Assembly: GCA_946403625.1 (NCBI GenBank)
Contig: CAMJAP010000022.1
Coordinates: 1 to 34,815 of the forward strand
DNA: 34,815 nucleotides
Reading direction: 5' to 3'
Source of the DNA: an uncultured Lachnospiraceae bacterium
GTDB lineage: Bacteria; Bacillota; Clostridia; Lachnospirales; Lachnospiraceae
Below the pieces are notes generated by a model. That model had not been told where the DNA came from and did not search any database. It saw only the letters and a list, made by a program, of their open reading frames with translations. Numbering within the stretch: position 1 is the stretch's first letter; each line of letters opens with the position of its first letter. Of the stretch, positions 1 to 32,876 are shown piece by piece. The position numbers and the translations under genes are program-made.

Positions 1-383
1 TGCGGTGCGTCAAAGACGATGACATCCCCGACCTGATAGTCGTGCCGCAGTTTGCTCACCGCTACGATCTGCCCGCTGTGGTAAGCCGGCTCCATCGATG
101 CATCCCGGATCAGCACCAGCTGTACAAGGCATTTCGATATGAGAAAGGCCGCCAGGACAGCCACGGCGGCACACACTAAGAAACCCTTATGTTTTCGGGC
201 AAATCTGCGGATCTGTTTTATTACAGAAGTCTTCCGGCTCTTTTCCGCCGCTTTCTTCCCGGTGCCGGCCTTTCGCACACGATCTTTTCCCGAAGATTGT
301 GCGGATTCATTCCCGGACATCTGCGCATCCTGCTTTGCGGAACTATTCTCATTTTTCTTCCGGTTTTCGGTAGACGACATCAT
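1..383 (-). CDS. lepB: Type I signal peptidase, 5' part only (runs off the left edge)
   Basis: The 127 visible codons start at tandem ATGs (383 and 380) behind a GGAGAG ribosome site. The protein has a Lys/Arg/Ser-rich cytoplasmic tail of about 65 residues, one membrane helix (about 67-83), and then the ASMEPAY block, whose Ser96 matches the catalytic serine of signal peptidase I (SM-x-P motif). The family removes signal peptides from exported proteins using a Ser/Lys dyad; the lysine lies outside the window. The start overlaps the end of the upstream 91-codon gene by about 35 bases, so the two are probably translationally coupled. The basic, Ser-rich N-terminal tail is longer than in short Gram-positive SipS-type enzymes. 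Identification is confident; choice of the first or second ATG is not. Confidence 0.88.
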   Translation of the reverse strand, partial: MMSSTENRKKNENSSAKQDAQMSGNESAQSSGKDRVRKAGTGKKAAEKSRKTSVIKQIRRFARKHKGFLVCAAVAVLAAFLISKCLVQLVLIRDASMEPAYHSGQIVAVSKLRHDYQVGDVIVFDAP

Positions 384-624
384 CGCTCTCCACTTCTTTG
401 CCACGGTTCTCATCGATATGTAAGAAGGCAAACAGCGCCTTTTTCATCTTGCGGAAATAGATGCCGAAGACCGCACCCAGCGCGATCACCACACCGGCCA
501 CCGCCTGGATCACATAGGTCATGACCGAGGGATCGATGTAGGCATAGGCCGTCACGCCAAAGAGCAGCATCGCCGAAACGAAACACCAGGCCGTAAATAT
601 AGCATACTTCAATACTCTTCTCAT
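349..624 (-). CDS. Small two-helix membrane protein with an AYAYIDPS motif
   Basis: This 91-residue protein has a signal-like first helix (about 7-28) ending in AYA, then YIDPS, a second hydrophobic helix (about 35-57), and a charged C-terminus. A short hydrophobic protein with a YIDP motif after the first helix is a pattern I have seen beside sulfatase-type envelope genes, but its function is not known to me. It lies between the triple-domain envelope enzyme (whose stop overlaps this start by 4 bases) and the signal peptidase gene. The overlaps on both sides indicate one operon. A role as accessory or partner of the upstream enzyme is inference from position only. Confidence 0.75.
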   Translation of the reverse strand: MRRVLKYAIFTAWCFVSAMLLFGVTAYAYIDPSVMTYVIQAVAGVVIALGAVFGIYFRKMKKALFAFLHIDENRGKEVESDDVVYRKPEEK

Positions 625-3600
625 CCTGCCTGTGCCTCCTTTCTGCGCGCGATCTGCGCCAATACTTCCGATACGATCACATCGCCGCCCACGTTGGCTG
701 CGTGGTCCGGATGGCAGATGTATTCCTGCACCAGTGCCTCCGTATGCTCCTGATACTCGGCCGAATGCGCCAGCAGATCCTCCGCCAGTGCGCGGATGTC
801 TCCCATCTTTTCGGGGCTCAAGCGCTTGCCGATCATATCCCGCAGTTTGATATCAAAAGGCTCGATATCGATCTCTTTGTAATCCTCGTTCATGATCTTC
901 ATCGGCGTATCAATATACAGTACCGGCCGTCCCGTGGTAAAGGCGTATTCCCAGGCAATGCCCGACCAGTCGGTGATCAGCAGGTCCGCTTCCATCACCG
1001 TATTATTGGAAGAAAAGTCTGTCTGGATGTGCACATGCTCCGTCTCGTACTTTTCCTTCAGCTGCTGCATATACTCGGCCTTCAGTCGCACTTCCTGCGG
1101 ATGCGGCCGTACGGTCACATCGTAATCGCCCGCAGACAGTTCCTTGAGCATCTCTTCCAAGCAGCTGTCCACGATGTTATCCGCCTGCCAGGACGGCGCG
1201 ATCAGGATCTGCTTGCGCTCGTGCTTTTCATGAGTCCCTGCACGATAAGCTGCACGCATATCGTCCAGCAACGGATAGCCCACCTCCGCCAGCACTTTCT
1301 TGCGCAGGCCGTACTTTTCTTCGATGGCCAGCTCCTCTTCCTTCTGCATCTTGTCCGCGCAGAAGACGATGTCAAAATACTCACAGCACATCTTGCGCAT
1401 GGTCAGGTTGTTACTGCCGATGTTGTGCTGTACATAGACATATTTGATGTCCGGCCGGATGTAACTGCGCTTGATGTGGAAATGCTCCAGATCCGGCATG
1501 GTCATTACCACCACATCCGCCTCCAGCTTCATCATCAGCGTGATCAGCTTGTTCTCGCCGATGTAATACGCGCGGATGCGGGGCTCTTCCTCTGCCTTGG
1601 CAAAGATCGCATCCTCCGGATCACTCGTCACATAGTGAATGGTCAGATCCGTATACTTTAAGATGTACTCGATATAGCCCTTGAAATACTTGTAAAATCC
1701 GCTGCCCTCGGAATAAAACACCAGATGCTTGTTCAGCACGGAGAAGAAACGCTTGTAATCCTTCCGCTCCCGCTTGCGGTTGGCGGAGAAGTACCCTTCC
1801 TTCTTCTTGCTGCCCACGCTCTGCAGTCCGGCCAGCGCTTTGCGGCTCTCTTCCAGCGCATCGTAATCCACGTATTTCTTCGGTGAGATCACGGCGTTGA
1901 GTACATACATCTGCACGATGGACAGCAGGTTGGATGCCACCCAGTACAGCGCCGTTCCCACCGGCACAAACCAGCCCAGATACAGAGACAGTCCCACGGA
2001 AAATACCATCATTCCGTACTGGTTCCATTTGCTCTGCTCTGCCTGCAATACATTGCTCTTGTTCTGTGTGTAGCTCATCAGCCACGCCGATGCAGCCGCC
2101 GCCAGCGGAGACCACAACAGGGTCAGTCCGGTCTGCGCGGGTACCTGTCCCAGGTTGATCGGGCCCCAGCTCATATCGATGGTGGGATCTTCGATGCCGG
2201 CACGGATGGCCGCCACCACACCGATCAGCAGCACCAGCTGTACGATCATCGGAATGGTCGACAGCAGCGGATGATAGCCTTCTTCCTTAAAGATGCGGGT
2301 CTGCTCCTCGCCCACCTTATCTTTCTGCCCGTAATACCGCGCCTTCAGGTGATTGATGGCCGGCTGTATGCGGATCATGGTGATGGAATTGATGTGCGTC
2401 CAAATGGAAAGCGGCAACAATACCAGCTTGGAAAACAGGGTAAATAACAGGATGGCCAGACCGTAATTGCCGCACAGACGATAGCAGGCATCCATACATT
2501 TTTTCAGCAGTACAGAAAGCGGCCCTTCCCCGGCTGCACGCTCCTTGGTGCCGCTGGGCTGATAGACCACGCCGGTCTCCCGCAGCGCCGCTGCATCAAT
2601 GGCACGCCCGTCCTCCTCCATTTCCACGATGACCGGCAGGTACAGATCTTCCCAGCGGTCGTCCCAGCTGTAATAGAGGAATCGTCTGCTCGCGCCGTCC
2701 GGATTGCAGGCATGCACCGCTTCCTCGGTGAGCGGCTGCCCCTCCAGCACGCCTTCCAACAGCGTCTTCATATAGGTGAAGGACATCTTCTCCGACGAGA
2801 TCGTAAACGGATGATGCTCCCCGGCATTCTTCACAAAAAAGATGGGATACTGACTATAGGTATGATACCCGTGGTCCGCCGTCACGATGATGGTCGCATT
2901 GTCATACAGTCCCTGCGCTTTCAGATCATCAAAGTACAGCTGCAGCATGGTGCAGTTTCCCTCGGCCTCGTCCAATGCACTGTAGATACGCTCCGCCTCC
3001 GAATGCAGTTCTCCGTCAAAACTGTACGGTGCGTGAATGCCCTCCAGATGATACACGTGCAGGCCCCGGTCACTGTCTCCGACGGACAGCCCCTTTTGCG
3101 TAAGTGCCGTATAAAAATCCTGTACATCCCACGAAAACGCCTCATCCCCGGCCTGCGTTGCCTGCAGGCTTTCAAACGTCGCGGTATCCACAAAGAAAAA
3201 GCGCTTCAACTGGTGCGGCATATAGTTAAATGCCACCAGGGAATACATATCTTTTGCAAATTCGCCCCAATTACCGATCCGGTACTGCCCGTGCTCGATA
3301 TTGGTATACTTTGCACAGTCCTGATCCAGAAATGCGCCGTCATCCGTATAAACGCTCAAACGATAATCACCCTGTGCCAGCTGCTCGTACAGGTCCGTCT
3401 GCGCATAGGCCCGTTTGATATACTCCGCATAGGTTTCCTGATTGAGGTACTCCACTCCGGTCAGCAGATACGGAAGCGATGCCTTGGTCGAAGGATACAA
3501 GGCCAGCGTATCCTGATAATAAGTAAAATCCTCAAACATTTCCTGATACCTTCCGGCATAGTTCTCGCGGAAGAACAGGTCCTCCATATCCTCGCCGTCA

Positions 3601-4229
3601 AAGGTATCCAGGATAAAGATGATGATATTTTCGTCTTTGGAAAGTGTCAGCAGATCCCGGTCGGTCACAACCACTTCGGTCCGAACCGGTGCATTCAAAA
3701 TATGATTCTTATAAAACGATACACACAGGGTTACCAGCTGCAGCCCCAGCAGCACGGCACAGACAAAACGCCCGAACGCATAGATCTTTTCCCGGATCAC
3801 AAAGATGCTGAAAACCGCTGCCGCAAGCGCCCCGACGATCAGCACGATGCTCGCATACGCATACACCGGATGCCGGTCAAAATCGATGGCCACGCCGTTT
3901 AATACACCGTAATGTCTGGGGATAAAATTGCCCTGCACATAAAAATACAGCAGGATATTGAGCAGGAAGGTAAAGACGATATACCCGCTTTTTTTCTTTC
4001 CGATGGTCCGGTACAGCACTTCCGCCACCGCCAGAAATACGACAAAAGCGCACACAAAACAAACTGCCACCACCGGCAGCAGTTGCATCAGGCGAAACCA
4101 GAATTCGTTTTCATTGGAGAAAAAAGCATCTAACGGTGCAAAGACCGTAAACATAAACGCCGAGACCAGCGCCCATAACAGCCAGCCTCGTGCGTTTTTT
4201 TCTTCCTTCCGATTTTTGATCAAGTGCAT
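621..4229 (-). CDS. Triple-domain envelope protein: phosphoglycerol transferase / YidC insertase / CDP-glycerol glycerophosphotransferase
   Basis: This 1202-residue protein starts with about five membrane helices (15-172). Residues about 195-500 are an alkaline-phosphatase-fold transferase like LtaS or sulfatases: ILDTFD (D208), YPSTKASLP (probable nucleophile T248) and TADHG (D452/H453). Residues about 585-782 match YidC/Oxa1: a GNYGLAILLFT helix, a charged loop, GYHPLLSTIPMIVQ and three more helices. K601 stands where SpoIIIJ-type YidC has its groove arginine. Residues about 830-1195 resemble TagB/TagF CDP-glycerol glycerophosphotransferases: VQHNIG (H935), RPHP (1041-1044) and LLITDWSG (1083-1090). 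The topology is consistent: five helices place the first enzyme outside, the YidC helices return inside, and the CDP-glycerol enzyme is cytosolic. It probably makes or modifies a glycerol-phosphate polymer. The ribosome site is GGCGGAG. Confidence 0.9.
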   Translation of the reverse strand: MHLIKNRKEEKNARGWLLWALVSAFMFTVFAPLDAFFSNENEFWFRLMQLLPVVAVCFVCAFVVFLAVAEVLYRTIGKKKSGYIVFTFLLNILLYFYVQGNFIPRHYGVLNGVAIDFDRHPVYAYASIVLIVGALAAAVFSIFVIREKIYAFGRFVCAVLLGLQLVTLCVSFYKNHILNAPVRTEVVVTDRDLLTLSKDENIIIFILDTFDGEDMEDLFFRENYAGRYQEMFEDFTYYQDTLALYPSTKASLPYLLTGVEYLNQETYAEYIKRAYAQTDLYEQLAQGDYRLSVYTDDGAFLDQDCAKYTNIEHGQYRIGNWGEFAKDMYSLVAFNYMPHQLKRFFFVDTATFESLQATQAGDEAFSWDVQDFYTALTQKGLSVGDSDRGLHVYHLEGIHAPYSFDGELHSEAERIYSALDEAEGNCTMLQLYFDDLKAQGLYDNATIIVTADHGYHTYSQYPIFFVKNAGEHHPFTISSEKMSFTYMKTLLEGVLEGQPLTEEAVHACNPDGASRRFLYYSWDDRWEDLYLPVIVEMEEDGRAIDAAALRETGVVYQPSGTKERAAGEGPLSVLLKKCMDACYRLCGNYGLAILLFTLFSKLVLLPLSIWTHINSITMIRIQPAINHLKARYYGQKDKVGEEQTRIFKEEGYHPLLSTIPMIVQLVLLIGVVAAIRAGIEDPTIDMSWGPINLGQVPAQTGLTLLWSPLAAAASAWLMSYTQNKSNVLQAEQSKWNQYGMMVFSVGLSLYLGWFVPVGTALYWVASNLLSIVQMYVLNAVISPKKYVDYDALEESRKALAGLQSVGSKKKEGYFSANRKRERKDYKRFFSVLNKHLVFYSEGSGFYKYFKGYIEYILKYTDLTIHYVTSDPEDAIFAKAEEEPRIRAYYIGENKLITLMMKLEADVVVMTMPDLEHFHIKRSYIRPDIKYVYVQHNIGSNNLTMRKMCCEYFDIVFCADKMQKEEELAIEEKYGLRKKVLAEVGYPLLDDMRAAYRAGTHEKHERKQILIAPSWQADNIVDSCLEEMLKELSAGDYDVTVRPHPQEVRLKAEYMQQLKEKYETEHVHIQTDFSSNNTVMEADLLITDWSGIAWEYAFTTGRPVLYIDTPMKIMNEDYKEIDIEPFDIKLRDMIGKRLSPEKMGDIRALAEDLLAHSAEYQEHTEALVQEYICHPDHAANVGGDVIVSEVLAQIARRKEAQAG

Positions 4230-4279: not shown

Positions 4280-5584
4280 TTACGCCAGAACCTTTCTGAT
4301 ATTTGCAAGTATTTCTTCTTCGTTGAACGGCTTGCTGATAAAGTACTTCGCACCGGCCCGCAGAGCACGCATCAGTTTGTCCTGCTGCCCGGCCGCCGTG
4401 ATCATGATCGCATTTGCCTTGGCGTCATAGGAAAGGATCTTTTCCAGTGCTTCCAGACCGTCCATCTCCGGCATCGTAATGTCGAGCGTTACCAGATCCG
4501 GCTTGCACTTCATATACGCCTGCAGACCTTCCAGACCGTTGCTTGCTTCCATTACCACGCGGTAACCGTCCTTTTCGAGGATGTTACGCAACATCTGTCT
4601 GGACATCTTGGAATCGTCCACGATCAGCACTCTTGCGCCGTCGCCCTCGCTCTCGTTTGCCTCCTGCTCTGCCACCGCGCCCAGCGTCAAAGCATCCGTG
4701 CCCGGAACAAAACTGCTGTTTACGGCGATCAAAAGTTCCAGTCTGCGTCCTTCCAGGATCACCGGCAGGATGTAAAAATCACCCTTGGCCGCCTGCTCCG
4801 CAAATGCCAGAGGCGGTTTCATATCGATGTCTACCGACTTGCCGCTCAGCGCAGTTGCCAACAGACCGCTGGTCACGTTGATGAACTCGCAGACGGAATC
4901 GTATGCGTCATCATAGACTTCATCCATCTCCTGCTTGGAGAATGCGGATGCTACCTGCAGGAATGCACCCTGCTCCTCTTTCTCCGCCACGGCGATAAAT
5001 ACGCTGTGATCTCCGGCCAGTTCCTGGCAAGCCAGATGCGTATAGGACAATTCCGTTGCTTTTCTTGCTTTTTCAATGTAAAAATCACGGCTGACAAAAC
5101 GCGTGATATTTCTGGTCAGCAGTCCTGCGATATCCAGCACATACGGCTTGGACGAATATACAAACATCGGCAGCAGCTCATCCAGATCATCCTTCTTGAG
5201 GATCTCCATCTCGTCCGGAGTAAATCCGATCTTTTTGCGGAAATCTTCCAGGTACTCTTCGAGTTTTTCCTTGGTGATATCCGTCATATCCATCAAAAGC
5301 TGCACAAACTGCATATATGCGTTGCCCTGCTTTTTCAGGAGCGCCCCAACCTGCTCGTCCGTCAGCAGCCCCTCGTCCACGGCGATGTCACCAAAACGAC
5401 GGTCCTGCGTCTTCTGCAGCTGATTGATCTTTTCTACCTGTTCCTCGGTCAGGATCCCGTCCATCACAGCGATGGTTCCCAGCTTTACACGGACGGACAT
5501 CTGCTCCTGAATCAGTTGTCTGTAATCGAATTCATTGATAACTTCCTGTTCCTGCAAATAGTTTCCAAATAATTGACAAAACAT
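4280..5584 (-). CDS. Response regulator with MshEN-like N-terminus, CheX-like phosphatase domain and CheY receiver
   Basis: This 434-residue protein starts at the ATG at 5584, eight residues inside the longest frame, because GGAGGT lies directly before it. Residues 34-57 and 63-86 are two 24-residue units, K/R-[LF]-G-x3-V-x2-G-x-L-x4-V-x2-[IL]-x3-Q, separated by five residues; this is the spacing of the c-di-GMP-binding MshEN domain. Residues about 145-300 look like CheX, with E233-x2-N236 as the CheC/CheX/FliY phosphatase signature. Residues 316-434 are a receiver with D323/D324, phospho-acceptor D368, T396 and K418. The family role would be tuning CheY-P or another phospho-signal. c-di-GMP binding is inference from the motif. 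It is a single gene, with a terminator in the leader between it and the ATPase gene. Confidence 0.85.
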   Translation of the reverse strand: MFCQLFGNYLQEQEVINEFDYRQLIQEQMSVRVKLGTIAVMDGILTEEQVEKINQLQKTQDRRFGDIAVDEGLLTDEQVGALLKKQGNAYMQFVQLLMDMTDITKEKLEEYLEDFRKKIGFTPDEMEILKKDDLDELLPMFVYSSKPYVLDIAGLLTRNITRFVSRDFYIEKARKATELSYTHLACQELAGDHSVFIAVAEKEEQGAFLQVASAFSKQEMDEVYDDAYDSVCEFINVTSGLLATALSGKSVDIDMKPPLAFAEQAAKGDFYILPVILEGRRLELLIAVNSSFVPGTDALTLGAVAEQEANESEGDGARVLIVDDSKMSRQMLRNILEKDGYRVVMEASNGLEGLQAYMKCKPDLVTLDITMPEMDGLEALEKILSYDAKANAIMITAAGQQDKLMRALRAGAKYFISKPFNEEEILANIRKVLA

Positions 5585-5643
5585 ATATGCACCTCCGGTT
5601 TTTATCACTTATACTGATTATATTGCATCTGTATAAATAATTC

Positions 5644-5672
5644 AAGACAGCGACCGGTTAAGTCGCTGTCTT
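5644..5672 (-). terminator. Hairpin terminator after the P-type ATPase gene
   Basis: A perfect 11-bp stem (AAGACAGCGAC paired with GTCGCTGTCTT) encloses a 7-base loop, 14 bases past the ATPase stop. The tail on the minus strand is AT-rich rather than a pure T run. On the plus strand the stem runs into TTTT, so it could act in both directions. Confidence 0.7.
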
Positions 5673-5685
5673 TTCTGAAAAAATC

Positions 5686-8307
5686 TTATAAATTTCTCTC
5701 TCTGCGGATGTCCAGACGCTCTTTTGCAAGAGTAATCGCTGCATTCACCATTACGCCGACCACAGCCAGCACCAGGATCGTCAGGATATCGCCTGCACCG
5801 ACCGTTGCCAGTTTCAGCAGATTACGCAGCGGCGGGATCACCAGCACACCCAGCTGCAATGCGATACCGATCACGGTGATCACATTGAGTGCCTTGTTGT
5901 TCCAGGACTCCTTGGTTGCAAATGCCAGGCTGCCCTTGGTCTTGCAGACATATGCCATCAGCATCTCGTTGATCGCCAGCGTGCTGAAGCAGTAGGTACG
6001 GCACATACGGAGCAGTTCTTCGTTGCCCTTCAGATTGCCCAGGATATTGCCCAGACCGTACTGACTGATCACCGGCAACAGGAACGCCAGCAGGGTAACC
6101 GCACCGCTGATCACGCCCTGGATCACGATGTTTAAGTAGTCACCGCGGTTTAAGATACCGGATTTTACGTCACGCGGCTTTTCGTTCATAACCGCATCCG
6201 AGCCTACGTCCATACCCAGTGCCAGAGACGGCGCGGTATCGGTCAGCAGGTTCACCCAGAGGATCTGGATGGTGGACAGCGGCGAGGACAGGCCTGCAAA
6301 GATCGCGGATGCCATCAGTACCACTTCACCGAAGTTGGAACGCAGCAGGTAAACCACGGATTTCTTGATGTTGTTAAACAGGTTACGGCCTTCCATTACG
6401 GCGTTCTTGATGGTGATGAAGTTGTCATCTACCAGGATCACTTCCGCCGCATCCTTGGCTACTTCGGTACCGCCGATACCCATCGCTACACCGATGTCGG
6501 CAGCCTTCAAGGACGGAGCGTCGTTTACACCGTCACCGGTCATAGAGCAGATCTTTCCGTGGGACTGGAATGCCTGCACGATCTGCACCTTGTTCTCCGG
6601 AGATACACGGGCAAATACGCGGTAGTTCAATACATTCTTGCGGAACTCTTCCGGATCCATCTCGTCGATCTCGGCACCGGAGATGCTCTGGGAGATATCG
6701 GTCGCGATGTCCAGTTCCTTGGCGATGGCAAATGCCGTGATCTTGTGGTCACCGGTGATCATCGCCACGTCGATGCCTGCGTGATGGCATTCGTCAACGG
6801 TTTCTTTTACGCCTTCCTTCGGCGGGTCGATCATCGCTGCCAGACCGACAAAGATCATATCCGCTTCCTGCGGCTTCTCATCGCCTTCGCGATAAGCCAG
6901 CGCCAGCACACGCAGTGCTTCGGAACTCATCTTGTCTGCGGACTTGGTGGCGCGCAGCACGTCTTCGTTGGTGATATCGCGCACACCGTTCTGATCCAGG
7001 ATACGGTTGCATCGTACGATAACGGAATCGATGGCACCCTTGGTAAAGGAAACGTTCTTGCCGTCTTTTACGTGATGCAGGGTGGTCATCATCTTTCGGT
7101 CGGAATCGAACGGGATCTCGTCGAAACGGTCGATGCCGGCCATGATCTGATCATAGCCCAGCTTGTTGTCTTTTGCATATTTTACGAAAGCGGTCTCGGT
7201 CGGATCACCGATCTCCTCGCCGGTCTCTTCGGAATACTTCGCATCGTTACATCCCAGGAAACCGAGCAGCAACTGCTGGAATACCTTGTCTTCCTTGTTC
7301 ACTTCCGCTGCCGGCTTCTCTTCGCCCAGCAAAAACCACCGTACTACGGTCATCTTGTTCTGGGTCAGGGTACCGGTCTTGTCCGAGCAGATAACATTTA
7401 CCGCCCCCAGGGTCTCTACCGCGTGGATCTGCTTTACGATGGCATTACGCTTGCTCATCTTCTGGATACCTGCGGAAAGTACCAGGGTAACTACCGTCGC
7501 CAGACCTTCCGGGATAACCGCTACCGCAAATGCGATGGAGATCATCAGGGTTTCGATCGGCTTGGTATTATAAATAAAGATCTGGCAGACAAACATCAGT
7601 ATGCACAGTACCACGCCCGCGATACCCAGCACCATGGAGATGCTGTTTAAGTTCTTCTGCAGCGGAGTTTCCTGCTTGGTGATCTTGTTGAGCATCGTGG
7701 AGATCTTACCGATCTCGGTATTGTCACCGATCTTTTCTACCACACCTTCGCCACGGCCGTATTCTACCAGGGTGGACATAAACACCTTGTCCTTACGGTC
7801 GCCCAGCGGAGTCTTTTCATCACTCTCTTCTCTGTGGTCTTTCTCTACCGCAACGCTCTCACCGGTCAGCGCCGACTCATTGACTTTCAGCGAGCTGGTT
7901 CCGGTCAGATGCAGGTCCGCCGGTACCACACGTCCGGCTTCCAGGATAACGTAGTCACCGACTACCAGATCTGCTGCCGGGATCTCTTTCTGCTCCCCGT
8001 CACGGATCACGACTGCCGTTGACGCATTGATCTGTTTCAAAGCCTCTACGGATTTTTCCGCCGATACTTCCTGTACCGTACCGATGATCACGTTCGCTGC
8101 CACGACCACGATAATGATGATACCGTCTACCAGCTCACCGGTTGCGATCGAGATGACCGCTGCCACGATCAAGAGTAACAGCAGCGGCGATGCAAACTGC
8201 CCCAGGATGATCGAGAACATGCTCTTTTTCTTTCCCTGGGTCAGAACATTTCTGCCGCTCTTGGCCCGTTCCAGTGCTTCCTGTGTTGTTAAACCTTTCT
8301 GTTCCAC
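5686..8307 (-). CDS. Cation-transporting P-type ATPase, Ca2+ type
   Basis: This 873-residue P2-type ATPase, close in plan to SERCA/PMCA-like bacterial Ca2+ pumps such as YloB and PacL, has TGES (148-151) in the actuator domain, PEGLA (266-270) in helix 4, and CSDKTGTLT with phosphorylated D309. It also has TGDGVNDAPSL in the hinge, and NLLTDTAPSLALG in helix 6, where N and D are the usual Ca2+ ligands. It should export Ca2+ from the cytosol using ATP. The start is GTG with an AAGGAAAGG stretch about 8-14 bases upstream; no better ATG lies nearby. It stands alone between two hairpin terminators. Mn2+ or another divalent ion cannot be excluded from sequence alone. Confidence 0.93.
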   Translation of the reverse strand: MEQKGLTTQEALERAKSGRNVLTQGKKKSMFSIILGQFASPLLLLLIVAAVISIATGELVDGIIIIVVVAANVIIGTVQEVSAEKSVEALKQINASTAVVIRDGEQKEIPAADLVVGDYVILEAGRVVPADLHLTGTSSLKVNESALTGESVAVEKDHREESDEKTPLGDRKDKVFMSTLVEYGRGEGVVEKIGDNTEIGKISTMLNKITKQETPLQKNLNSISMVLGIAGVVLCILMFVCQIFIYNTKPIETLMISIAFAVAVIPEGLATVVTLVLSAGIQKMSKRNAIVKQIHAVETLGAVNVICSDKTGTLTQNKMTVVRWFLLGEEKPAAEVNKEDKVFQQLLLGFLGCNDAKYSEETGEEIGDPTETAFVKYAKDNKLGYDQIMAGIDRFDEIPFDSDRKMMTTLHHVKDGKNVSFTKGAIDSVIVRCNRILDQNGVRDITNEDVLRATKSADKMSSEALRVLALAYREGDEKPQEADMIFVGLAAMIDPPKEGVKETVDECHHAGIDVAMITGDHKITAFAIAKELDIATDISQSISGAEIDEMDPEEFRKNVLNYRVFARVSPENKVQIVQAFQSHGKICSMTGDGVNDAPSLKAADIGVAMGIGGTEVAKDAAEVILVDDNFITIKNAVMEGRNLFNNIKKSVVYLLRSNFGEVVLMASAIFAGLSSPLSTIQILWVNLLTDTAPSLALGMDVGSDAVMNEKPRDVKSGILNRGDYLNIVIQGVISGAVTLLAFLLPVISQYGLGNILGNLKGNEELLRMCRTYCFSTLAINEMLMAYVCKTKGSLAFATKESWNNKALNVITVIGIALQLGVLVIPPLRNLLKLATVGAGDILTILVLAVVGVMVNAAITLAKERLDIRRERNL

Positions 8308-8352
8308 CTTCGTTTTCCTTTCCTTTTGATTGCCCTGTTGTTTTCCTCAAAA

Positions 8353-8381
8353 ATGGACCCCACCCTTCCGATGAAGTCCAT
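8353..8381 (-). terminator. Hairpin downstream of the PrsW-like gene
   Basis: ATGGAC pairs with GTCCAT, with an inner CTTC-CGAT-GAAG hairpin. A T5 tract follows on the minus strand and a T6 tract on the plus strand. It lies between the PrsW-like gene stop (8485) and the ATPase start (8307). Confidence 0.55.
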
Positions 8382-8484
8382 CTTTTTTGCAAAATGGTTT
8401 CCTTATTGAATCAACCCAACTATAATACTCTGACCTATGATCAAATGTCAATTCCCTGCCGGGTGCTTTTCCGCAACTGCAGGT

Positions 8485-9744
8485 TTACACCCCGCCTGAA
8501 GAATTGCCGCCGTTCTGTCCGCCGTTCTGCTGCTGCAAAAACTGCTGTGTCATATTCTGCGGCTGCATTCCCGGCTGCGGTATGTTTCCGTACGGCGGTT
8601 GCATATTCTGCTGCGGTGCGCCCATATACGGCTGCTGCATATTCTGCTGCGGTACGTTGCCATACGGCTGCGGCATTCCCTGCTGCGGCACGTTCACATA
8701 CGGTTGCGGCATTCCCTGCTGCGGCCTGTTGACATACGGCTGCGCCATTCCCTGCTGCGGCATATTCCCATACGGCTGCGGTACATTCACATACGGCTGC
8801 GCCATTCCCGGCTGCGGTACATTCACATACGGCTGCACCGGTGCCGGAGCCCCGCATCTGCCGCAGAATTTCAAGGTAGAAGGTGCGCCGCACTGCGTAC
8901 AGGTCCATACCTCTACCATCGGACGAGGTTTGCCGCAGGTGCAGCAGAAGTTCAGCTGATTTTCTCTTCCGCAGGTACACATCCAGTTTCCGGCAACGGA
9001 AGGCCGATATACGATCGGTCCGGCCTGCGGCATTACAATAAAGCAGAAGTCATTCTTGGATGAGCGGACAACCACGATCACTGCCGCAATAAACATCGCG
9101 ATCACAAATACCAGCCAGAGGAGCAGGCTGAGTCCGGCGGTAAGCAACTGTCCGGTGGCCAAACCGCCCATCAGAATCGCATCGTAGATTCCGTGTACCA
9201 GCGCCGGCAGCCAGAGTGCCAGTCTTTTGTACTTCTTATAGTCGGCCCGGTTGCCGGTAAGATCGGCGTACTTTGCTTTACTATAGAAAGCACCCATAAA
9301 TACACCGAAGCAGGCGTGTCCCGGTACGGCCGTGAACATACGCAGGATAGCGGTAGCCAGGCCGCCCTCGTTTACATAGAGCACATTTTCGATGCAGGCA
9401 AATCCCAGCGAGCAAAATACCGCATAGACGATGGCATCGAAGCTGTAATCAAAATGCTTGCTCTTCCAGGTCAGCTTCCGCAGCATCACATATTTTCCCA
9501 TTTCCTCTGCCGGTCCCACGAGGCAGGCTGCCACCACGACTTTCTGCAATACCTCATCGTACGGAATGGCCGCCTGCAGGATCGCCTCTCCGATCAGTTC
9601 GATGATGCCCACCGGAATGACCGAGACCATTCCCAGAAAAAACAATCCGATCAGCAGCCTAAGCGGCTCTTTTTCCTTCTTATCTTTTACATAGATAAAG
9701 ATCAGCAGTGCGATGACCGGTATCAGTGCCAAAGCAAATATCAT
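8485..9744 (-). CDS. PrsW-like intramembrane protease with two zinc ribbons and a Pro/Gln repeat tail
   Basis: This 419-residue protein has about seven or eight membrane helices in residues 1-226. They carry the PrsW glutamic-protease signatures: GPAEEMGK (E80/E81, K84), FACIEN (E119), PGHACFG (H143) and HGIYD (H184/D188). PrsW enzymes cleave membrane anti-sigma factors at site 1. Two short Cys4 zinc ribbons follow (C256/C258/C267-270 and C282/C285/C294/C297), then about 115 residues of degenerate repeats of the form QPYxNxPQxGM, ending in Gly/Asn. The tail should be cytosolic. It may bind partners or form assemblies; this is inference. The start follows GGGAGG. The gene sits 16 bases after the 59-residue gene, so the two form an operon. 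No sigma or anti-sigma gene is present nearby. Confidence 0.85.
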   Translation of the reverse strand: MIFALALIPVIALLIFIYVKDKKEKEPLRLLIGLFFLGMVSVIPVGIIELIGEAILQAAIPYDEVLQKVVVAACLVGPAEEMGKYVMLRKLTWKSKHFDYSFDAIVYAVFCSLGFACIENVLYVNEGGLATAILRMFTAVPGHACFGVFMGAFYSKAKYADLTGNRADYKKYKRLALWLPALVHGIYDAILMGGLATGQLLTAGLSLLLWLVFVIAMFIAAVIVVVRSSKNDFCFIVMPQAGPIVYRPSVAGNWMCTCGRENQLNFCCTCGKPRPMVEVWTCTQCGAPSTLKFCGRCGAPAPVQPYVNVPQPGMAQPYVNVPQPYGNMPQQGMAQPYVNRPQQGMPQPYVNVPQQGMPQPYGNVPQQNMQQPYMGAPQQNMQPPYGNIPQPGMQPQNMTQQFLQQQNGGQNGGNSSGGV

Positions 9745-29885: not shown

Positions 29886-32876
29886 TTATGCATTAACAAT
29901 ATACTCATATATATCTTCCCTGACCGGCTCATTCAGAATCCACTCTATCTCTACCGCAGTTTTATCCGTATTTGCCATCGTAAATACGTGTGCCCTGCCA
30001 CTGGCCGTCATTGTTCCAAGATAATAAAACTCTTTCGAAATCTTATCATCTTTATTTTTTCTGACGAACAATTCAACACGTATTCCCCGTTCTTTTGCTT
30101 TCAGAAAATTCTGTACATCTTCAGATTCCAAACTTCTTCCGGATTTAGAGATTGCAACAAGCATTCTTCTGTTGACAAAATGATCCTCATATTTTGTCGT
30201 ATCACTAATATCTTCCGCCTTATCATAATTGATAAAAACCGGAAATGTCTTCGTCTTACGATCAAACTTATATCCACCAATATTCAGCGGGACTTCATTG
30301 TTTTCCCAGTTCAAAAGTCTGCAGACATCTTCATATGTATACTTTTGATACAAAACAAGATCCGTACTTCCATAAGCATTGCTATAATCCCGTTTATATC
30401 TGCTAATGCCAAAGTCTATCAATTCTTCGATAATATGATAAAAGTCATCGTTTCTCAACATATCGTCAAAAGATGATGTCGGCTTATAATCTGATGAATC
30501 CTCCTCTATGAATACGCATTTTGAATATGTTTTCTTCCCCGATCCAGCCGGGAACTCATTAGTCAATACATTTGCTATATTCTTCTTTTGTTCCTCACTT
30601 ATCTCTTTTCCATAGCCTTTAAGATCTTCTGCTAATCCTGCAAACAATCCGCATTTTGCAATACCTCTGGAATATGCCAGCACACGTTTCAACATCTGAA
30701 GTTCCTGAATTCGTTTCCCACTCGCCAACTTCTTTGATATAAACTCCACAACAGATTCTTCATCAGAAGACAATCGAACCGTATATTCTTTTTCATACTT
30801 CAAAAGAAATTTATAATAGGAGCCAAGACTGCTATTATCAAATATTCTCAAGACATCCATTTCCCCATAATCATCAAAATCTTTCAATGCAGGAATTCGT
30901 CCAAGTTTGTTCTTCAAGTTAGTATAGTTTTCCTTGATCAGCTTTATATCACTAAAATTTGCATTATCTACAGAAGCAAAAATCTTTTTCCTGCTGATTT
31001 CATCAAAATGTATTGTCGATGCTCCCGGAAGCACCCTGCATCCCTCCATAACAAATCTCCGAATATTGTCTTTATTATAGGATCTGTCTCCGGAAAGTGC
31101 GATCGGTATCATAAAATTGTTATTGTAATTTCCGATGAAATCAAGTATTACAACATATTCTTTCCCTTCTGCTTTTCGTAGTCCTCTTCCCAACTGCTGT
31201 ATAAACACAATCGGCGACTCCGTAGGCCGAAGCATGATTACCTGATTCACCTCAATGATATCAACACCTTCGTTTAATATTTCTACAGAAAGAATATAAT
31301 CTAATGGTTGTCTCCCCTCCAAATCATCTTCGTCTGCCGCCAAACGTTCAAAAGCTTCCTGGCGTTCCTCTTCTGAAGCACTGCCATTTAAAGCAATCGT
31401 TCTAAAATATTTTCCAGTTGCCGGATTAATCGTATGATTCAGTTTATCCGCCAGCACTTCGGATTCCTTAATTTTACTACAGAAAATGAGTCCCTTTACC
31501 TTTTTACCGCTGTATCCGTAATAATCTGCCTGTTCAACGATATGCTTTATTCTTTCATCACTGGTCAGCATATTGAAATCACGTGATTCGTTCTCATCAT
31601 CGCCAATAACAGAAAGGTCTGTAATTCCAAAATAATGAAACGGACACAGCAGATTTTCTTCCATAGCCTGCTGCAACCGAATTTCGTGAGCTATATTATA
31701 ATGGAAAAGCTCATAGACATTCCGTCCTTCAATATGATCATCCCTCTTATCCGGTGTTGCAGTCATTCCAAGCCAAAGTCTTGGCTTGAAATAGTGCATA
31801 ATCTTCTGATATGTATTCGCTACCGAATGATGCGTTTCATCCAAAATGATTGCGCTGAAATAGTCCGGGGCAAAATAGCAAAGATTTTCATCTCTTGAGA
31901 GTGTCTGAACGGTTGCAAATACAAAATCTTTATCTTTGCAATTATCCAGCGAATCTTTGCCACATACGATTCCCATAGAAACTGTACTTGAGAAAACTTT
32001 TTCGTAAGACTTTTTCGTTTGTCGGGCCAATTGATTTCTGTGAACCAAGAACAGTACTCGTTCAAAACCCAATTCTCTCATAGCAAACGCAGATGCATAA
32101 GTCTTCCCGGTTGCTGTTGCACTGATCAATAATGCCCTATCTTCACCAGCCTCAACAATTTTTCGAAGTCCGGCAATAAACCTCTCCTGCATAGAATTCG
32201 GTTTCAGCGTATATTTCTCAAGAGAAGGAATCTCTTCCGTTTTGGCGATCTTCCTCTGATGATCTATGATCCGATATCGTTCTTTGTATATATCATAAAA
32301 ACGTTCGTAATCCAGTGCCCATTCGCTGTTCCATAACTGTTCAAACTCTTTTATGATCAGTGACGCCATTTCCCCTTTCTCGGTAGAAACAAGCTTCGTA
32401 TTCCACTCCCAATTACTGGTCAACGCTGTACTCGTCATATTGGAACTGCCAATAATGATCCGGTACACTTCAGCCTTCTTGAATATATAACCTTTTGTAT
32501 GAAAACCGGTTCTCGCCTCTTCCGCATCATACATTTTTATTTTGATATTCTTTAACTCGTGAAGTTTTTCTAACGCTTTGGGTTCACTAAAACTCAAATA
32601 GTTTGTTGTAAGAATTCTTCCAGGAATATTCTTTCGCTCGAGTTCTTTCAATGTCTGAAGCAACGGGGTTATTCCCCCCAATGTAATAAAAGCCACGCTT
32701 ATCTCAAAACGATCGCATCTAAGCAACTCATCTTCCACAGATGAAAGCACCTTTTTCCCCCGAAAACGATCATTGGTGATAAACTCCGGTTTATATACAG
32801 GATCAACTACTGTTGTCCCATCTATATAAGCAGCATCCAATCCATTTTTTATCAGATTTGTTATTGTCACAGACAT
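29886..32876 (-). CDS. PLD-nuclease / superfamily 2 helicase / DUF3427 protein, candidate defence factor
   Basis: This 996-residue protein has a PLD-like phosphodiesterase domain (about 30-185) with one HxK (H126-T-K128) and SSNMT (144-148). The helicase core (about 225-580) has Walker A ATATGKT (253-259), DETH (346-349), MTATP (371-375), the FCSK motif and QLGRGLRK (561-568). The long C-terminal part (about 640-990) resembles DUF3427. This combination is known in prokaryotic helicases and is often found in defence islands. A role in cleaving or unwinding foreign DNA is inference. The gene is AT-rich (23 of 60 G/C in 30601-30660, against 36 of 60 in 1081-1140), which suggests horizontal transfer. 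It shares an operon with the NUDIX gene. Confidence 0.88.
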   Translation of the reverse strand: MSVTITNLIKNGLDAAYIDGTTVVDPVYKPEFITNDRFRGKKVLSSVEDELLRCDRFEISVAFITLGGITPLLQTLKELERKNIPGRILTTNYLSFSEPKALEKLHELKNIKIKMYDAEEARTGFHTKGYIFKKAEVYRIIIGSSNMTSTALTSNWEWNTKLVSTEKGEMASLIIKEFEQLWNSEWALDYERFYDIYKERYRIIDHQRKIAKTEEIPSLEKYTLKPNSMQERFIAGLRKIVEAGEDRALLISATATGKTYASAFAMRELGFERVLFLVHRNQLARQTKKSYEKVFSSTVSMGIVCGKDSLDNCKDKDFVFATVQTLSRDENLCYFAPDYFSAIILDETHHSVANTYQKIMHYFKPRLWLGMTATPDKRDDHIEGRNVYELFHYNIAHEIRLQQAMEENLLCPFHYFGITDLSVIGDDENESRDFNMLTSDERIKHIVEQADYYGYSGKKVKGLIFCSKIKESEVLADKLNHTINPATGKYFRTIALNGSASEEERQEAFERLAADEDDLEGRQPLDYILSVEILNEGVDIIEVNQVIMLRPTESPIVFIQQLGRGLRKAEGKEYVVILDFIGNYNNNFMIPIALSGDRSYNKDNIRRFVMEGCRVLPGASTIHFDEISRKKIFASVDNANFSDIKLIKENYTNLKNKLGRIPALKDFDDYGEMDVLRIFDNSSLGSYYKFLLKYEKEYTVRLSSDEESVVEFISKKLASGKRIQELQMLKRVLAYSRGIAKCGLFAGLAEDLKGYGKEISEEQKKNIANVLTNEFPAGSGKKTYSKCVFIEEDSSDYKPTSSFDDMLRNDDFYHIIEELIDFGISRYKRDYSNAYGSTDLVLYQKYTYEDVCRLLNWENNEVPLNIGGYKFDRKTKTFPVFINYDKAEDISDTTKYEDHFVNRRMLVAISKSGRSLESEDVQNFLKAKERGIRVELFVRKNKDDKISKEFYYLGTMTASGRAHVFTMANTDKTAVEIEWILNEPVREDIYEYIVNA

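Follow-up and report, generated by a model that had tools for sequence, protein, structure and literature searches.

A Lachnospiraceae protein joining an AlkP-superfamily domain, a YidC module and a TagF-like transferase: a possible head-group transfer machine of the cell envelope

The stretch of DNA considered here (the window, 34,815 nucleotides, positions 1 to 34,815 of contig CAMJAP010000022.1 in GenBank assembly GCA_946403625.1) comes from an uncultured Lachnospiraceae bacterium and carries near one end a minus-strand gene, termed S-Y-T, whose product combines three modules: S, a Sulfatase/AlkP domain (the letter also covering the helices that precede it), Y, a YidC domain, and T, a TagF-like domain (Table 1; genomes, contigs and loci of the survey bear G, C and L numbers, the window genome being G000). 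An earlier note on this DNA had read the frame as an outer sulfatase-like enzyme, an insertase and an inner transferase in one 1202-residue chain, and profile searches bear this out, with all three domains exceeding their Pfam cut-offs. S passed narrowly (PF00884 Sulfatase, residues 201-466, 27.0 bits against a cut-off of 25), Y matched the full-length profile PF02096 60KD_IMP (residues 589-778, 102 bits against 35) as well as TIGR03592 yidC_oxa1_cterm of NCBIfam (95.6 bits against 84.3), and T matched PF04464 Glyphos_transf (residues 963-1105, 44.8 bits against 22.1). By profile the closest solved relative of S is LtaS (2w5q, E 7e-11), and solved relatives of T are Cps3D (8qoy, E 1.8e-11) and TarL (8va1, E 5.6e-8).

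Residues D208, T248, H399, D452 and H453 of S are invariant in 21/21 rows of its alignment and, by comparison with LtaS, we take them to be metal ligands together with a threonine nucleophile (T248, putative); the nucleophile position is thus held by Thr and not by Cys or Ser as in sulfatases, and D452-H453 form a DH pair. The corresponding invariant set in T, found in 18/18 rows, is H935, RPHP at 1041-1044, D1071 and S1089. The N-terminal helical domain is shared with stand-alone S proteins, and a hydropathy scan placed all five of its helices and 4/5 of the expected YidC helices above threshold, which is compatible with the proposed topology of S outside the cell, Y in the middle and T in the cytosol.

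The gene is intact, at 84% identity, in three relatives (L010, L011 and L012), whose record titles describe Lachnospiraceae metagenome-assembled genomes from sheep omasum, sheep rumen and water deer rumen, and a fourth genome (G310) carries it split across contig ends; with the split copy counted, S-Y-T was found in 5/35 genomes of the genus sample. Between the window and its relatives the ratio of nonsynonymous to synonymous substitution rates (dN/dS) was 0.06-0.24 in each of six parts, both linkers included, and 0.06-0.08 for Y alone, with 0, 4 and 4 indel columns. A sequencing or assembly error joining separate genes, or a domain order absent from relatives, would have undone the earlier description, and neither was found; the three intact orthologues, G310 and the low dN/dS in every part rule out an artefact of joined genes. 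Identity to the relatives is 92-94% for Y and T and 70-71% for S; S thus evolves faster, as might be expected of an enzyme whose outer acceptor changes. A separate housekeeping yidC, sought in the same genome, is present (G000:C48), so that Y is not the organism's only YidC. Nor is Y the housekeeping protein itself, since a branch of the Y tree with a Shimodaira-Hasegawa-like approximate likelihood ratio (SH-aLRT) of 88 parts 16 housekeeping rows from all 60 fused rows. The window genome also holds, on C44, a Y-T-S chain of 1359 residues and, on C74 and C78, two Y-S chains of roughly 900 residues.

Table 1. Features of the window, with the housekeeping yidC loci used for comparison
Feature	Position	Strand	Remarks
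Signal peptidase S26-type gene	3..383	minus	truncated at the window edge; uncertain start codon, the frame being open as far as 431
sm, small membrane protein	349..624	minus	91 aa; motif AYIDPSxxTYxIQAVAGV; ATG overlaps the S-Y-T stop codon (ATGA)
S-Y-T gene	621..4229	minus	1202 aa; ATG start; stop codon 621-623; N-terminal helices + S + Y + T
T, TagF/TarL-like transferase domain	645..1724	minus	residues 836-1195
Y, YidC/Oxa1 domain	1860..2474	minus	residues 586-790; K601 in first helix
S, putative outward AlkP-superfamily phosphotransferase domain	2595..3689	minus	residues 181-545
N-terminal membrane domain	3690..4229	minus	residues 1-180; five predicted helices (hydropathy scan)
Upstream genes	4280-9744	minus	CheX-like/response-regulator protein, P-type cation ATPase, PrsW-family protease
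Helicase/PLD-like protein	29886-32876	minus	996 aa, with DUF3427
Housekeeping yidC loci	L001, L107-L117, L119-L124, L145		K or Y at the groove-arginine position

Within the family the modules occur in four arrangements, two of them as pairs of genes (S|Y-T and T|Y-S) and two as single chains (S-Y-T and the permuted Y-T-S). A same-strand S gene lies within 6 kb at 20/31 Y-T loci, 18 of these within 500 bp, and where 2.5 kb or more of sequence is available on each side S stands beside Y-T at 14/20 loci. At the T-alone loci it is Y-S that lies within 6 kb (20/23, of which 17 within 500 bp). Eight of the 23 T-alone loci (L090, L091, L125, L126, L130-L132 and L146) were chosen after T and YidC matches were known on one contig, and the selection-free count is that of the best T-alone locus in each of 13 family-sample genomes, outside which fall the second copies of G261 and G004; here a same-strand Y-S stood beside T in 12/13, the exception being L089. 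Genus-wide, a same-strand fused-type YidC domain was found within 5 kb of 15/30 T-alone places and within 10 kb of 18/30; at one place it lay 10.7 kb away and 11/30 had none on the same contig and strand. The locus counts leave out a near-duplicate (L020), a repeat (L106), short fragment loci and L147-L155. The 31 Y-T loci include L013, which is the S-Y-T of G310 cut by a contig end, and they are not all independent, L016-L019 with L021, and L023-L025, being close relatives and G283 supplying three loci. Y-T was found in 16/299 genomes of the family sample and in 5/391 of the class sample (two of the five outside Lachnospiraceae), and Y-S in 2/299 genomes of a phylum sample in which the family is thinly covered, both of them Lachnospiraceae. 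The suggestion of the earlier note that an insertase fold had been co-opted is upheld, because genomes with an ordinary yidC also carry Y in several fused forms, with S, with T or with both. On comparative grounds, the recurrence of the modules together in rearranged form (S|Y-T, T|Y-S, S-Y-T and Y-T-S) argues strongly that the inner transferase, the YidC module and the outer transferase work as a single device in Lachnospiraceae, several of which come from the rumen.

S-Y-T forms one clade and Y-T-S another in the Y, T and S trees, both nested apart among unfused forms; the trees are quick searches, and the SH-aLRT values of the fusion clades span 74-100, with the minimum at the Y-T-S clade of the Y tree. 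S appears from these trees to have been fused to Y-T separately, at the front in S-Y-T and at the back in Y-T-S. The Y-T gene of L057 is preceded on its own strand by two S genes, which is the gene order needed for an S-Y-T fusion. The first of these two is the S closest to S-Y-T in the S tree, and in the Y tree the Y-T of this locus is likewise the closest once the S-Y-T orthologues are set aside (its T, cut by a contig end, falls outside the T tree). One common origin for the Y of Y-T and that of Y-S is only a possibility, since the deep joins of the Y tree bring together very long branches (1.82 and 3.7), a warning that the join may be false. Y-S-type proteins, about 850-910 residues long, were seen clustered at L097 and L098 (G321:C73, 488-540 kb), and nine YidC-domain places were counted at 489-554 kb of that contig.

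The earlier note had also held that K601 replaces the arginine of the YidC groove. K601 does occupy the position of this arginine in solved YidCs (the K column of the profile alignment), but it is no special replacement, because 9/18 housekeeping YidCs of Lachnospiraceae also have K there (the other 9/18 have Y). K is found at this position in 41/42 rows of the Y-T group, the remaining row having a gap, and the 39 Y-S rows have N (27), S (8) or another residue (4). The Y-T group is set apart by Q722, N726, Q729 and Q732, which are invariant in its 42/42 rows, whose letters occur in 0, 1, 2 and 0 of the 18 housekeeping rows respectively and which are never found in the 39 Y-S rows. N715 is present in 39/39 Y-S rows and 0/18 housekeeping rows.

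The relatives of S-Y-T are linked, both physically and statistically, to genes for cytidylyl donors. A cytidylyltransferase of LicC/PntC type lies within 6 kb at 21/31 Y-T and 13/23 T-alone loci, phosphoenolpyruvate (PEP) mutase at 14/31 and 7/23, phosphonopyruvate decarboxylase at 13/31 and 7/23 and an aminotransferase at 16/31 and 6/23. At L019 the last three exceeded their cut-offs (2-aminoethylphosphonate aminotransferase TIGR03301, 467 bits; PEP mutase TIGR02320, 412; phosphonopyruvate decarboxylase TIGR03297, 441), and the nucleoside triphosphate (NTP) transferase there is closest among solved proteins to LicC (1jyk, E 1e-33), the PntC fusion 6pd1 (E 3e-9) coming level with other NTP transferases; for the fused cytidylyltransferase domain of L061 the best solved matches are 6pd1 (E 3e-14) and 1jyk (E 1e-11). 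PEP mutase exceeded the cut-off of a public model in 10/16 Y-T genomes of the family sample against 21/283 others (Fisher p 1.7e-7) and in 8/9 against 12/26 in the genus sample (p 0.048), all Fisher tests ignoring relatedness. The cytidylyltransferase profile A4 matched 16/16 Y-T genomes against 118/283 others (p 1.6e-6), partly by construction, because A4 was built partly from Y-T loci, with rows from 10/16 Y-T genomes; the six that gave no rows (G022, G086, G189, G216, G251 and G257) all matched it, and A4 is also common without Y-T, 134/299 genomes matching in all. The only LicC/PntC-type match of the window genome at E 1e-25 lies inside a phosphonate operon (L087) and for this reason CMP-2-aminoethylphosphonate (CMP-AEP; CMP and CDP are cytidine mono- and diphosphate) is our best guess for the donor in that genome.

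Other loci carry variants of the same theme, in which different donor genes take the corresponding place but the chemistry is similar. At L152, in another bacterial family, Y-T, the decarboxylase (PPD), cytidylyltransferase and PEP mutase stand in a row followed by an Fe-alcohol dehydrogenase, which is also present at L104; at these two loci the dehydrogenase would give hydroxyethylphosphonate, and CMP-hydroxyethylphosphonate would be the resulting donor. At L071, L138, L140 and L144 a choline/ethanolamine kinase adjoins the cytidylyltransferase or is fused to it, and at L061 (where it is CobD-like), L065, L067, L139 and L146 a class I aminotransferase is the fusion partner; these kinase- and aminotransferase-linked forms would make CDP-choline or CDP-ethanolamine-type donors. 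At L023 (3523-5943) Y-T is followed by an aminotransferase and a fusion of a PF01467 cytidylyltransferase with a GFO-IDH-MocA oxidoreductase, genes that possibly serve a different CDP-amino-alcohol donor. G283 has three Y-T systems (L070, L071 and L104) with different sets of neighbours: phosphonate genes with the Fe-alcohol dehydrogenase, a cytidylyltransferase/choline-kinase fusion, and a cytidylyltransferase beside an NTP-transferase/RmlD/phosphoribosyltransferase-like fusion.

Among the immediate neighbours of S-Y-T, the small membrane protein sm is found within 6 kb at 11/11 S+Y+T fusion loci, 21/31 Y-T loci and 0/23 T-alone loci, with homologues at L006, L056, L061, L062 and others, and at L058 it is fused to S. 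There was no Pfam match for its L061 relative and no PHROGs match for the window copy; a phage origin was considered and rejected, PHROGs having no match for P0001 or sm. The gene on the other side of sm is assigned to the S26 signal peptidases by a Pfam match of its L056 relative and by a profile match of 97 bits for the window copy. Such a gene neighbours 4/11 fusion and 6/31 Y-T loci, and recurs beside S-Y-T and its nearer Y-T relatives at L011, L012, L056, L065, L067 and L072. Upstream, the order of the CheX-like/response-regulator and P-type ATPase genes before S-Y-T is kept in L011 and L012.

It is quite possible, although we would stop short of calling it probable, that S-Y-T is a single-chain head-group transfer machine, in which T loads a lipid on the inside, Y provides the crossing and S delivers to a surface acceptor. 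In such a machine T, in the cytosol, would draw on a cytidylyl donor (CMP-AEP being the most likely one in the window genome) and transfer its small head group, phospho-alkyl or phosphono-alkyl, to a membrane lipid; Y would offer the charged lipid head group a thinned, polar path through the membrane; and S, at the outer face, would take the head group on T248 and pass it to a surface glycan or other acceptor. Transfer from donor to lipid is the likeliest step for T on the basis of gene linkage and fold, and transfer of the head group to an acceptor would be the likeliest for S, judging from its fold and residues. For Y the likeliest step would be movement of the lipid across the membrane, given its position between an inner and an outer enzyme and the analogy of Escherichia coli YidC, which scrambles phospholipids in vitro (PMC10491306). 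Which donor is used, that a lipid serves as intermediate, that Y flips it and what accepts the head group outside are all matters of inference; the substrate of S-Y-T is drawn from its relatives, because no donor genes were seen linked to S-Y-T itself. A bolder version, about which we are more doubtful, is that the Oxa1/YidC fold has here turned into a dedicated flippase for lipid head groups, a phosphonate or an ethanolamine/choline-type phosphate, and that it supplies the missing late step of phosphonyl tailoring.

A number of observations weigh against a head-group transfer machine. Those TagF/TarL relatives whose function is known take CDP-glycerol or CDP-ribitol as substrate. Within 6 kb of the 11 S+Y+T fusions (S-Y-T and Y-T-S, the window included) no donor gene was found, although their flanks are mostly short, being full only at L100 and nearly so at L012 and L102, and the phosphonate operon of the window genome is on a separate contig. 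A same-strand S within 6 kb is lacking at 11/31 Y-T loci, some of them cut by contig ends, and a cytidylyltransferase over threshold at 10/31; of these ten, five (L013, L014, L022, L025 and L057) have a contig end close by, L023 carries the PF01467 cytidylyltransferase mentioned above, and L024, L056, L058 and L063 show none. PEP mutase over the cut-off is missing from 6/16 Y-T genomes and from G311, an S-Y-T genome of 89% completeness, and 5/14 of the Y-T loci with PEP mutase are close relatives (L016-L019 and L021). The residue at the K601 position is N or S in 35/39 Y-S proteins. Finally, the lipid scrambling by E. coli YidC may be incidental, and movement of lipid by Y is something that we only infer.

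How far the alternatives account for the same data has to be set against this. The earlier note had taken T for a CDP-glycerol enzyme of the teichoic-acid type, in which case T would polymerise glycerol phosphate from CDP-glycerol, Y would pass the polymer and S would add or transfer phosphoglycerol. The PF04464 match and the closest solved relatives (Cps3D, TarL and LtaS) suit such a system, as do weaker matches to TIGR01518 (TagD, glycerol-3-phosphate cytidylyltransferase), not located in the PEP mutase fusion, in five additional Y-T genomes (G022, G086, G213, G283 and G328; best of each 59-128 bits against a cut-off of 165.4), which may, from these scores, hold a divergent CDP-glycerol synthase. 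However, TIGR01518 passed its cut-off in only 2/24 Y-T genomes (G294 and G297) and not in the window genome, where the sole match, of 33.6 bits, lies inside the PEP mutase fusion; the linked cytidylyltransferases are LicC/PntC-like instead, and the linked genes of the relatives suit CMP-AEP or CDP-choline/ethanolamine-type donors. CDP-glycerol is accordingly disfavoured as donor, the earlier reading of T is not supported, and a teichoic-acid machine is very unlikely. It may alternatively be the case that T is LicD-like and decorates a lipid-linked glycan on the inside, which then leaves by another exporter, S being a separate outer phosphotransferase that merely shares the chain. The donor genes found nearby belong to the Lic and Pnt pathways, and LicD-like transferases have been noted in other phosphonate clusters (PMC6697681), but the co-occurrence of S and T through Y in four arrangements is left without a reason, and we consider this explanation unlikely.

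The remaining alternatives concern Y. It might still be a protein insertase that helps S, sm or some partner to insert or fold, this substrate being the reason why Y goes with the enzymes, as would fit its full YidC profile (102 bits), the positive groove residue of the Y-T group and the overlap of sm with the S-Y-T stop codon and its presence near 11/11 fusions and 21/31 Y-T loci. Against this, sm cannot be a general substrate of Y, because it is near none of the 23 T-alone loci; Y precedes S in Y-S and Y-T-S and follows it in S-Y-T, which is ill-suited to help during synthesis; and each lineage has its own invariant positions (Q722, N726, Q729 and Q732 in Y-T, N715 in Y-S). The probability of a retained insertase role therefore seems low. 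Y could instead be a passive scaffold that joins inner and outer enzymes whilst lipid or polymer crosses by another flippase, and the different linkers and orders tolerated in several arrangements agree with this; a complete YidC fold would be needless for such a purpose, yet purifying selection on Y is strong (dN/dS 0.06-0.08), and the same fold would have to have been retained in each of two deeply separate lineages, so that we rate a mere scaffold as improbable, much as we do a retained insertase.

The head-group transfer machine proposed for S-Y-T would share parts with several known systems. Y resembles the YidC/Oxa1 insertases (PF02096; solved 3wvf and 3wo6) in matching the whole profile, in a first helix, cytoplasmic hairpin and last helices that can be aligned and in the K at the groove position of Y-T proteins, but is unlike them in being fused to envelope enzymes, in existing beside a normal yidC and in a set of invariant residues that the 18 housekeeping rows show seldom or never. 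LtaS has five N-terminal helices. S is like LtaS-type AlkP-superfamily head-group transferases (2w5q) in its AlkP-type profile, the Thr at the nucleophile position, the DH pair and five N-terminal helices, whereas it is joined to Y and T and its relatives are linked to donor genes of cytidylyl-phosphonate/choline type. T has the Glyphos_transf profile and the H935, RPHP, D1071 and S1089 residues in common with TagF/TarL (8va1) and Cps3D (8qoy), but 22/24 Y-T genomes are without TagD over the cut-off and the linked donor genes differ. With the Pnt and Lic pathways (PMC6697681) the Y-T loci share PEP mutase, phosphonopyruvate decarboxylase, 2-aminoethylphosphonate aminotransferase, a PntC/LicC-type cytidylyltransferase and choline-kinase fusions; the main text of that paper has 0 occurrences of 'YidC', 'TagF' and 'sulfatase'. 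Among the matches listed in the open-licence PubMed Central literature, a YidC fused to such envelope enzymes was not described.

The late steps leading from CMP-AEP to a phosphonylated cell surface are described in PMC6697681 as unknown; capture of CMP-AEP by carbohydrate or lipid nucleophiles has been proposed there, with mention of LicD-like transferases. A machine of the S-Y-T type is a concrete and testable candidate for the steps between CMP-AEP and phosphonylated surfaces. If Y does move lipid, it would be a natural case in which the lipid scrambling seen for insertases in vitro has been turned into the main job of an Oxa1-family protein. That the same three parts recur in other orders, often beside genes for activated phosphonate or choline/ethanolamine-type donors, suggests that in these Lachnospiraceae the YidC module has been repurposed to help decorate the cell surface.

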